Assembly: GCF_024643285.1 (NCBI RefSeq)
Contig: NZ_JAMSLW010000002.1
Coordinates: 1-64,000 of the forward strand
Length of the DNA: 64,000 nt
Reading direction: 5' to 3'
DNA from: Parapedobacter lycopersici
GTDB taxonomy: Bacteria; Bacteroidota; Bacteroidia; Sphingobacteriales; Sphingobacteriaceae
The notes beneath the pieces were generated by a model. It worked only from the letters and a program-made list of their open reading frames with translations. It was not told the DNA's origin and searched no databases. This document shows, one piece after another, positions 4,803 to 42,040 of the stretch. Numbering within the stretch: the first letter of the stretch is position 1; every line of letters starts with the position of its first letter. The position numbers and the translations under genes are program-made.

Positions 4803-5095
4803 CAGACAGCATACGCTTCGATTGCTCCTAATCTTCGATGGCATTATATACGATTAATTTATAATACAACTCCTATACCCAAAGGCAGACCGCTAAACCT
4901 TTACTATAACAGGAATTTCAGCGTTTACTTTTAGTAGGGTATTGATAAACGTATCGTTATTATCTTATGGGCCAGTGCCGGGCGAAAAGCCTACCCCATA
5001 ATTATGCCAGTGTTTACCACGCAGAGCACAAAGGAAAGCCCCGAAACAGGGAGAAAAAACAGCTACACCATTAACCTGATAAACTCAGAAAAAAC
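4803..5095. other. Intergenic, decayed sequence
   Basis: No supported reading frame on either strand. Together with the flanking fragments this makes roughly 800 bp of apparently decaying DNA between two intact genes. No repeat, RNA or terminator could be identified. Confidence 0.4.
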
Positions 5096-40783: not shown

Positions 40784-40807
40784 AGTTAGGATAACTAACT
40801 ATATTTA
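40784..40807 (+). promoter_or_regulatory. Probable MarR operator, copy 1 (before the CPVC gene)
   Basis: AGTTAG-GATAA-CTAACT (40784-40800) is a perfect palindrome with a 5-nt centre; 16 bp (GTTAGGATAACTAACT) are identical to 41100-41115. A -7-like TATATTTA (40800-40807) follows directly. The ATG is at 40848. Confidence 0.75.
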
Positions 40808-40847
40808 TAGCGGCAATATTGCCGCAGAACGTTAAATGCTTAGTATC

Positions 40848-41081
40848 ATGGCAAAATCAGTTTTTTATCATGCAGGCTGTCCTGTTTGCGTAAGCGCGGA
40901 ACACGACATTATTAACCTTATCGGTGCCGAAAATGTAGAAGTAGTACACATTGGCGAAGTACGGAACAGAATTGACGAGGCAGAAAAAGCGGGTGTAAAA
41001 TCAGTACCTGCACTGGTAACACCAACCGGCAATGTACTGCACATTAACTACGGCGCTTCAATAGCCGACGTAAAAGGTTAA
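40848..41081 (+). CDS. Thioredoxin-fold small protein with CPVC motif
   Basis: 77 aa from ATG 40848 (MAKSVFYHAGCPVC); the ATG at 40836 would add four residues. Compact glutaredoxin/thioredoxin-like layout: strand S-V-F-Y-H, redox motif C-P-V-C followed by helix V-S-A-E-H-D-I-I-N-L, strand V-E-V-V-H-I-G, helix R-I-D-E-A-E-K-A-G-V, the cis-Pro loop S-V-P-A-L-V (Pro before strand 3) and T-P-T-G-N-V-L-H-I-N-Y-G. Likely a thiol oxidoreductase or selenium/sulfur/metal carrier. Its promoter has the same palindromic site as the DUF2024-marR operon, so it belongs to that MarR regulon. Confidence 0.82.
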   Translation: MAKSVFYHAGCPVCVSAEHDIINLIGAENVEVVHIGEVRNRIDEAEKAGVKSVPALVTPTGNVLHINYGASIADVKG

Positions 41082-41086
41082 AAATT

Positions 41087-41118
41087 TTTGCCCTATATTG
41101 TTAGGATAACTAACTTTG
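41087..41118 (+). promoter_or_regulatory. Probable MarR operator and promoter, copy 2 (DUF2024-marR)
   Basis: TTTG (41087-41090), 20 nt, TAACTTTG (41111-41118) is a full promoter. The site GTTAG-GATAA-CTAAC (41100-41114) covers the upstream part of the -7 box, so a bound repressor blocks initiation. Identical 16 bp to 40785-40800. Confidence 0.78.
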
Positions 41119-41155
41119 TAGGGCCTTTTAATGTAAACAAACAAAAACAACAGAC

Positions 41156-41419
41156 ATGCAGGTAGCCGTTTGGGACACTTACGTAACAAAAGATGACGGA
41201 AGTGTCATGCACTTTGACATCATTACGCCCCATGAGGTAAAAGACACCGCCGTAATTTACGGTTACGGTAAGGAATACCTTGAAACCAAGGGCCAGGAAA
41301 GCCATACACTAACGGCAGCGGAATGCCGCTTTTGCCATATAGAGACTGTAAAACCGCATTGGGAAAATGAAATCAGAAGAAAAGGTTATTATATTTATGA
41401 AATGGAAAATTGCAGCTGA
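41156..41419 (+). CDS. DUF2024 family protein
   Basis: 87 aa, the usual length of the family. Conserved start M-Q-V-A-V-W-D-T-Y-V-T-K-D-D-G, middle M-H-F-D-I-I-T-P, and the C-terminal L-T-A-A-E-C-R-F-C-H-I-E with C-x-x-C-H, then I-R-R-K-G-Y-Y-I-Y-E-M-E. The C-x-x-C-H could bind zinc or act as a redox thiol; no function is assigned to the family. It begins 3 bp upstream of a MarR gene, downstream of the palindromic operator. Confidence 0.88.
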   Translation: MQVAVWDTYVTKDDGSVMHFDIITPHEVKDTAVIYGYGKEYLETKGQESHTLTAAECRFCHIETVKPHWENEIRRKGYYIYEMENCS

Positions 41420-41422
41420 TGA

Positions 41423-42040
41423 ATGATGAATAAATCTGATTTTGACTTAACACACCAGAACCGGCACACTGCGAGTAAAATCGTGGCTTCGCTGGAACGG
41501 ATTGCCCAGGCTTTCCGTGTGCTGCTATGGCAGGAGAGCAAGGCGCATTCATTAAGCCCCATCCAGGTGCAGGTATTGCTGTTTTTGCGCTATCACAGTG
41601 ATGAAAAAAGAAAAGTAAGCTACCTCGCAGGTGAGTTCAACATGACCAAAGCCACAATTAGCGACACGGTTAAAACGCTGGAACAAAAACACCTGATTGC
41701 CAAAGCATATGAACCGGATGATACGCGGAGCTATATCATCAACCTGACACAGAAAGGCAGGGAAATAGCGCACCAGACTTCACTTTTCACCAAAGAGATC
41801 CGTACACCCATTGATAAGCTTCACCCCGATGAGCAGGAAAACCTGTTGCTGAGCCTGCTCCAGGTCATCCGGCACTTAAATAAAGCAGGGGTAATTACCA
41901 TCCAGCGCATGTGTACAACCTGCTCCCATTATCAACCATCCGCCGATGGAAAGACACATTTCTGCAAGCTGCTCAACCAGCATTTACATGTTACGGAACT
42001 GCGGGTCGACTGCCCCGAACACGAATTTGAGTTGACTTAA
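41423..42040 (+). CDS. MarR family regulator with C-terminal four-cysteine tail
   Basis: 205 aa, longer than the usual 140-160. Winged helix: L-S-P-I-Q-V-Q-V-L-L-F-L-R, recognition helix M-T-K-A-T-I-S-D-T-V-K-T-L, wing D-D-T-R-S-Y-I-I-N-L-T. After the dimer helix a tail of about 45 residues carries Cys164-x2-Cys167-x13-Cys181-x15-Cys197 with nearby His166-199 region residues, a spacing suitable for a zinc or iron-sulfur site or a thiol switch. Gene starts 3 bp after DUF2024 and shares its promoter. The palindromic site GTTAGGATAACTAAC found before this operon and before the CPVC gene is the expected operator. ATG 41426 is an equally possible start. Confidence 0.88.
   Translation: MMNKSDFDLTHQNRHTASKIVASLERIAQAFRVLLWQESKAHSLSPIQVQVLLFLRYHSDEKRKVSYLAGEFNMTKATISDTVKTLEQKHLIAKAYEPDDTRSYIINLTQKGREIAHQTSLFTKEIRTPIDKLHPDEQENLLLSLLQVIRHLNKAGVITIQRMCTTCSHYQPSADGKTHFCKLLNQHLHVTELRVDCPEHEFELT

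Follow-up and report, generated by a model that had tools for sequence, protein, structure and literature searches.

The window analysed here, 64,000 nucleotides of Parapedobacter lycopersici contig NZ_JAMSLW010000002.1, contains at positions 40784-42040 a compact cassette of three genes: a gene for a CPVC mini-thioredoxin, followed by a DUF2024 gene and a marR gene that lie 3 bp apart (41419/41423). Each of these two units is preceded by the 16-mer GTTAGGATAACTAACT, which occurs in the window as two exact copies, at 40785-40800 and 41100-41115. The genes and the two sites, which we refer to as operators, are as follows:

40784-40800, + strand: operator 1, AGTTAGGATAACTAACT, 17 bp, matching the consensus AGTTAGGANTCCTAACT at 14/16
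40848-41081, + strand: CPVC thioredoxin-like protein, 77 aa, a relative of PDB 2k8s
41099-41115, + strand: operator 2, TGTTAGGATAACTAACT, matching the consensus AGTTAGGANTCCTAACT at 13/16
41156-41419, + strand: DUF2024 protein (PF09630) with a CRFCH motif; PDB relative 2hfq
41423-42040, + strand: MarR-family winged-helix protein with a C-terminal four-cysteine module (C164, C167, C181, C197)

The repeated 16-mer, the three gene calls and the thiol motifs of all three proteins had been proposed in an original prediction made from the letters alone, and each stood up to re-examination. The CPVC protein has the active motif GCPVC and matches PDB 2k8s by sequence at E 1e-23; with a CxxC motif and a solved thioredoxin relative it is classed as thioredoxin-like, and it has no match in Pfam or NCBIfam scans. 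The DUF2024 protein scores 120.4 bits with PF09630 (cut-off 27). We take both PDB homologs, 2hfq for DUF2024 and 2k8s for the thioredoxin-like protein, to come from Nitrosomonas europaea; the titles of the two records assign DUF2024 no function. The MarR protein comprises 205 aa, with a winged-helix domain that scores 37.4 bits with PF12802 (MarR_2; cut-off 27). Its sole cysteines are the four of the tail, and residues 1-163 contain none.

Operator conservation across genomes

With up to three mismatches allowed, 0.32 matches to the 16-mer are expected in the window, and at least two matches arose in 6 of 100 shuffles; two exact copies before adjacent genes are far beyond shuffle expectation. 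Comparison with orthologs shows that the window 16-mer has diverged from a 17-bp palindrome, AGTTAGGANTCCTAACT; site 1 reaches one base further than the 16-mer, to 40784. We studied 56 loci with their neighbourhoods, some from other phyla, and used 46 Bacteroidota loci with a four-cysteine marR for a test of upstream regions; L097, with too short an upstream sequence, and L104, L125 and L131, whose MarR did not cluster, were left out of the 46. Absence of the 16-mer upstream of orthologous cassettes is an outcome that the original prediction had named as fatal to it. Instead, within the 2 kb ahead of marR, 35 of the 46 loci have a match of 14/16 or better, against 0 in dinucleotide shuffles (100 shuffles), and at 13/16 or better the count is 37/46, against a shuffle mean of 0.31. 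Without the seven loci that suggested the consensus, sites of at least 14/16 and 13/16 are found in 28/39 and 30/39 regions, respectively. Thus a marR gene with an operator shared between itself and two targets bearing thiol or metal motifs, as originally claimed, is conserved in orthologous cassettes. The CPVC genes follow the same pattern: across the 56 loci, the 150 nt before the gene contain a site scoring 13/16 or more in 24/25 cases, and in the twenty-fifth (Nostoc, L085) such a site lies ~180 nt upstream. The operator centres lie mostly 44-62 nt ahead of the CPVC start codon.

We also sampled 395 genomes from the phylum, scoring the 8 best MarR candidates per genome and calling a genome MarR-positive at E 1e-25. 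By this measure 28/395 genomes are positive, the pattern GTWAGGANTCCTWAC is present in 15/395, and 13 genomes have both. The pattern was chosen after viewing sites in the same MarR-positive loci, so that its presence in 13/28 positive genomes, against 2/367 negative ones (p 5e-15), is not a blind count and to that extent weakens the case. The independent part of the evidence is the near-absence of GTWAGGANTCCTWAC from MarR-negative genomes, together with a reversed-motif control that matched 16 genomes, 1/28 positive and 15/367 negative. Thirteen of the 14 GTWAGGANTCCTWAC sites in MarR-positive genomes lie within 2 kb of marR, and the other (G588) is inside an open reading frame (ORF). The matches in the two MarR-negative genomes were taken as chance, one being inside an ORF (G591) and one before a ComEA-like gene (G421).

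DUF2024 is distributed in a similar way, occurring in 13/28 MarR-positive genomes (one counted copy, in G509, contains internal stops) and in 6/367 MarR-negative ones (p 1e-12), four of which have no operator site near DUF2024. In two loci, L012 (3500-3600) and L101 (the same locus as L018; ~4960-5040), DUF2024 has been lost, with apparent 3' remnants visible by eye upstream of marR; operator and marR are retained in both.

Within the 3.6-Mb host genome GTTAGN5CTAAC has three copies, the third inside an ORF, and there is no exact match to GTWAGGANTCCTWAC, because the right half-site has drifted. A search for further operators at up to two mismatches gave 27 forward and 18 reverse matches, fewer than the 56/50 of the reversed control, and the two extra sites that we followed up are inside ORFs. 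The regulon in this host therefore looks limited to the cassette. Elsewhere in the host genome (L159; G000:C12, ~474164-477454), FixH-like, truncated-globin, Ric/YtfE-like (by eye) and hemerythrin-like genes lie together, without an operator. Overall, we are highly confident that the four-cysteine MarR and the palindrome form a regulator-operator pair.

Promoters and RNA hairpins around the operators

Bacteroidota use a promoter of the type TTTG-N19/20-TAnnTTTG. Four further features of the window surround the operators:

40800-40807, + strand: -7-like box TATATTTA, at the very end of operator 1
40810-40825, + strand: inverted repeat GCGGCAATATTGCCGC in the 5' leader, folding at -11 kcal/mol (z -1.6)
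41087-41118, + strand: promoter-like TTTG-N20-TAACTTTG, whose -7 box overlaps operator 2
41090-41124, + strand: terminator-like hairpin GCCCTATA..TGTAGGGC followed by CUUUU; operator 2 forms the inner stem

The promoter at site 2 has the parts originally described, TTTG at 41087-41090, a 20-nt spacer and TAACTTTG at 41111-41118, and the box at site 1, TATATTTA, is one base off TAnnTTTG. Of the 34 first-gene leaders compared, 24 have a TAnnTTTG box whose first base is the last base of the operator. Since operator and -7 box overlap, binding should block RNA polymerase at either promoter, and marR would regulate itself through the unit it shares with DUF2024. Repression, as deduced from position, is well supported by that position and its conservation, and autorepression of both units is very probable.

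The hairpin at 41090-41124 overlaps the DUF2024-marR promoter. Its fold, GCCCUAUA..UGUAGGGC followed by CUUUU, has an energy of -19.8 kcal/mol (z -4.9); a simple promoter and terminator scan gave no excess and did not flag the hairpin at 41090. The outer stem counts 8 pairs in the window and 9-11 in L091, L098, L101, L107 (second intergenic site) and L108, which preserve it although the paired bases differ. In L094, L107, L114, L116, L118 and L121, which are presumably flavobacterial, the hairpin is built between the operator and a second, imperfect copy of it, and in L105, L109, L117 and others the stem is weak or missing. The DNA site predicted to repress the downstream unit thus seems also to terminate the upstream unit.

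An extra operator sits immediately before marR in L114, L115, L116, L117, L118 and L121, and between it and the start codon lies a terminator-like hairpin (weak in L118); attenuation at marR is possible in these loci.

The inverted repeat GCGGCAATATTGCCGC lies just past the -7 box, where the CPVC mRNA probably begins. At this fixed offset (11) the repeat GGCAATATTGCC forms three outer pairs in 17/34 leaders, including AGC/GCT and GAC/GTC versions, against a mean of 6.4 and a maximum of 12 in shuffles. A rival offset, 4, reaches 15/34 leaders, and, leaving aside GGC/GCC, all three pairs are found in just 7 of 24 distinct leaders, so the leader hairpin is weak and dispensable.

The four-cysteine MarR subfamily and its gene neighbourhoods

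All four tail cysteines are present in every row of two alignments, one of 12 close relatives and one of 20 diverse ones (A3), and the motif CxxC-x(10-17)-C-x15-C fits 50/51 clustered MarR rows; the exception, L123, retains the four cysteines at a wider spacing. An AlphaFold model (mean predicted local distance difference test score, pLDDT, 71) shows a MarR fold, the tail of which is poorly resolved. Its best Foldseek matches are ST1710, MepR, MftR and PefR, and MexR and AbfR are matched as well. We read these proteins as a putative MarR subfamily that has an operator of its own and controls a portable regulon. The window carries the tail motif and the AGTTAGGANTCCTAACT operator (14/16 and 13/16), and at the level of sequence it shows the MarR-family trait of a palindromic operator at both a target promoter and the regulator's own.

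The family includes redox repressors of the OhrR, MexR, AbfR and HypR types, and OhrR-type peroxide sensors carry their sensing cysteine in an N-terminal helix. With these the window MarR shares a winged-helix repressor fold, a palindromic operator at its promoters, autoregulation and plausible thiol sensing. In contrast to them, its four cysteines sit in an added C-terminal module, its operator and regulon differ, and the N-terminal cysteine of OhrR is missing. Likewise, it has the MarR fold of the zinc repressors AdcR and ZitR and may have a metal site, but it scores 29.7 bits with the AdcR model (NCBIfam NF038251) against a cut-off of 175. The nitric oxide (NO) repressors of the NsrR/Rrf2 type resemble it in likely biological role but belong to another protein family, and the Thermus NsrR site, CTTGACCNNGGTCATGG in a passage of PMC5748679, is unlike the AGTTAGGANTCCTAACT operator. 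Rrf2 genes lie near homologs in Shinella, in Deinococcus and in the MarR-negative locus L184.

The MarR has relatives within Bacteroidota; others, at 29-35% identity, occur in Proteobacteria, in Deinococcota and on a Nostoc plasmid. Sites of the TAGGANTCCTA type lie ahead of the Nostoc, Thermus, Shinella and Sinorhizobium loci and are present in Defluviimonas, Rhizobium and Sphingopyxis too; the Deinococcus site is imperfect, and we found none of this type at the Paraburkholderia locus. Four gammaproteobacteria, P. aeruginosa, Enterobacter, Lelliottia and Citrobacter, have a CPVC-type gene (its motif being CAIC in P. aeruginosa and CTVC in Enterobacter) opposite a divergent gene for a MarR that bears this tail. 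We take PA0942 to be this MarR in P. aeruginosa. Scored with the A3 profile among 8 sequences, Lelliottia not being scored, the P. aeruginosa, Enterobacter and Citrobacter proteins reach E values of 4e-29 to 5e-33. DUF2024 and the Rho-binding antiterminator ROF (Pfam-checked in Enterobacter) follow in P. aeruginosa, Enterobacter and Lelliottia, and in Citrobacter the next gene is annotated merely as hypothetical. These gammaproteobacterial sites follow GTATCGANTCGATAC, exactly in Citrobacter and Enterobacter and imperfectly in Lelliottia and P. aeruginosa; this 17-bp palindrome is similar in length and layout to that of the Bacteroidota, with a different half-site.

In the 56 loci the families found near MarR are CPVC (25), DUF2024 (20 by clustering, or 22 with L013 and L082, where the ORF picker missed DUF2024, known in L082 from its annotation), P245 (10), protoglobin (7: L015, L082, L106, L113, L120, L123 and L127, five by clustering plus L082 and L106) and cytochrome P460 (6: L103, L124, L126, L129, L130 and Thermus L084). 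The DUF2024 cluster took in truncated globins owing to a fusion in L111, and its member in L016 is a globin alone. In L111 (4369-5001), DUF2024 and a truncated-globin domain share one open frame, the globin part scoring 20.3 bits against a cut-off of 21. A truncated globin also lies between DUF2024 and marR in L108, as a remnant in L105 and near marR in L016. Overall, the genes that join or replace DUF2024 and CPVC encode protoglobin, truncated globin, cytochrome P460, HTHP, catalase and Tpx, with nitrite reductase in Thermus. There, P460 adjoins marR and is followed by cytochrome c, a radical-SAM gene and nitrite reductase. The Nostoc locus has Tpx, CPVC, MOSC, an AurF-type enzyme and a globin; that of Ruegeria has HTHP, a redoxin and MOSC; and that of Defluviimonas has NnrS, a truncated globin and hemerythrin within ~6 kb. 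In the MarR-negative genome G613 (L184), an Rrf2 gene and a divergent cbb3-like oxidase accompany CPVC, DUF2024 and truncated globin. Sites of at least 13/16 lie by protoglobin in 4/5 MarR-positive genomes that have it and in no MarR-negative genome.

Two further neighbours recur. P245, a secreted-looking protein of ~245 aa, is found by MarR genes in several phyla (L107 4325-5062, L086 4678-5394, L154 4920-5681) and has no Pfam match in 5/5 members scanned. In L179-L182, L150 and L151 a link to vitamin B6 is possible: DUF2024 adjoins YggS and, in L179-L181, MocR genes (PdxR by model in L180), and in Enterobacter and Lelliottia it is near YggS and PtsJ.

Possible signals and relation to earlier work

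We lean towards reading the cassette as an autoregulated stress switch, governed by a reactive-nitrogen/haem-thiol stress repressor that senses through its four-cysteine tail. A MarR homodimer would bind the palindrome AGTTAGGANTCCTAACT at the two promoters and block transcription of the CPVC mini-thioredoxin and of DUF2024 and marR. The C-terminal module, CxxC-x10..17-C-x15-C, would hold a zinc (Zn) or iron-sulfur (Fe-S) centre, and attack on this centre by reactive nitrogen species (NO, HNO, hydroxylamine) or an oxidant would release the repressor. The CPVC protein may then repair thiols, while DUF2024 may act on the reactive species or on its damage, a role that protoglobin, truncated globin, cytochrome P460, HTHP, Tpx or catalase would take in other genomes. 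Sensing through the tail is probable, and we put the chances that reactive nitrogen is the signal at about even. Cytochromes P460 oxidise hydroxylamine to NO and/or N2O, according to a passage of PMC11928373, and the globin, P460 and nitrite-reductase neighbours suggest reactive nitrogen first and oxidants second. The original description of the circuit as redox- or metal-responsive was too open: the neighbourhood favours reactive-nitrogen/haem-thiol stress over plain metal sensing.

Several observations weigh against this reading. The window's own sites deviate from the consensus in the right half, and 9/46 upstream regions (L082, L110, L119, L122, L123, L127, L128, L130 and L132) have no site of at least 13/16, L082 and L127 having operator sites elsewhere in the locus. 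A 13/16 site (5490) precedes CPVC in L184 and a 12/16 site (4838) precedes DUF2024 in L183, with no four-cysteine MarR at E 1e-25 in either genome; a missed regulator is possible. The TTTG -33 box lies at 18-21 nt in just 10/34 leaders, and both boxes occur in 8. The modelled tail is of low confidence (pLDDT ~60), and because it is poorly resolved, the idea that it binds Zn or Fe-S is guesswork based on the motif. Enrichment of protoglobin is modest (5/28 MarR-positive genomes against 12/367, p 0.004), and the host's own truncated-globin cluster (L159) is without any site of at least 12/16. Peroxide would account for the catalase, Tpx and redoxin neighbours as readily as NO, and YggS and PdxR/PtsJ hint at vitamin B6. 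Finally, the Thermus nir/nor regulator shown experimentally, as a passage of PMC5748679 reports, is an Rrf2 NsrR with an Fe-S cluster, not this MarR.

The same repressor and operator could instead answer peroxide, hypochlorite or another thiol oxidant or electrophile, through a disulfide or Zn release in the four-cysteine tail. Catalase in L013, L082, L096 and Rhizobium L157, Tpx in Nostoc L085, redoxins in the Shinella, Ruegeria, Lelliottia and Sphingopyxis loci and HTHP in L082 and L154 all point this way, and a passage of PMC6335721 lists PA0942 among oxidative-response genes. We consider an oxidant signal fairly unlikely; it leaves unexplained the globins and cytochrome P460 that replace DUF2024 and CPVC directly under the operator.

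A role for the system in sensing or repairing pyridoxal phosphate damage, under hydroxylamine or carbonyl stress on vitamin B6, is improbable. Such a role would fit YggS beside marR or DUF2024 in L016, L094, L013 and L179-L182, and near them in Enterobacter and Lelliottia with PtsJ and a PfkB kinase, as well as neighbours in L180 and L082 that exceed the cut-off of the PdxR model (355 and 363 bits against 320). It would also accord with the hydroxylamine oxidation by cytochromes P460 cited above and with the conservation of DUF2024 in ammonia-oxidising Thaumarchaeota (a passage of PMC6393860). Few of the 56 loci have such genes, however (YggS cluster 3, PdxR-like cluster 2), and no site of at least 13/16 is found in L179-L182.

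About as improbable, in our estimate, is a tail that forms a purely structural zinc module on a repressor that, like MepR or AdcR, answers a metal or a small organic ligand. Four cysteines fit structural Zn sites, and ST1710, MepR, MftR and PefR are the closest folds, but the most widely shared clusters, as listed, include neither an efflux pump nor a metal transporter, and the AdcR score given above falls far below its cut-off. That the repeated 16-mer is a chance or duplicated-promoter coincidence is negligibly probable: the window operators are imperfect and a local duplication could give two copies, but the cross-genome tests and the conservation of the operator upstream of orthologs speak against it.

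The original prediction also held the combination to be undescribed, which stands within the literature searched. In that literature, which leaves most subscription journals outside it, we saw no study of this regulator beyond a Thermus mention and no paper joining MarR, a Rho-binding antiterminator and thioredoxin. Three passages there on PA0939-PA0942 are list entries, and one paper names DUF2024, as 'metal-binding protein, DUF2024 family' in Thaumarchaeota (a passage of PMC6393860). The Thermus mention concerns a possible relative, norR, a MarR-family gene reported in a passage of PMC9270275 as syntenic in denitrification clusters beside nitrite-reductase genes. The four-cysteine MarR of L084 is likewise a MarR-family gene beside nitrite reductase and, by our own reasoning, may be that norR; the source cited for norR, PMC7694296, has no 'MarR' in its main text and covers NsrR/NorR. 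A MarR autorepressor of stress genes is of a known kind, while the subfamily, operator, regulon and operator-terminator layout appear new.

More tentatively, and as something we regard as possible rather than probable, these proteins may be a bacterial reactive-nitrogen sensor family outside NsrR, NorR, DNR and HcpR: MarR repressors with a C-terminal four-cysteine (Fe-S or Zn) module and a portable regulon, spread over Bacteroidota, Proteobacteria, Deinococcota and Cyanobacteria. DUF2024 would then be a new NO- or hydroxylamine-handling protein, working with globins or fused to them, and the operators would double as intrinsic terminators between regulon genes.

Through this analysis an apparently uncharacterised, cross-phylum MarR subfamily gains a defined operator and regulon, and DUF2024, conserved in ammonia-oxidising archaea according to the same passage of PMC6393860, is put into a testable stress context. 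The MarR/thioredoxin/DUF2024/ROF cassette of P. aeruginosa is part of it, and work on the system would bear on three protein families.

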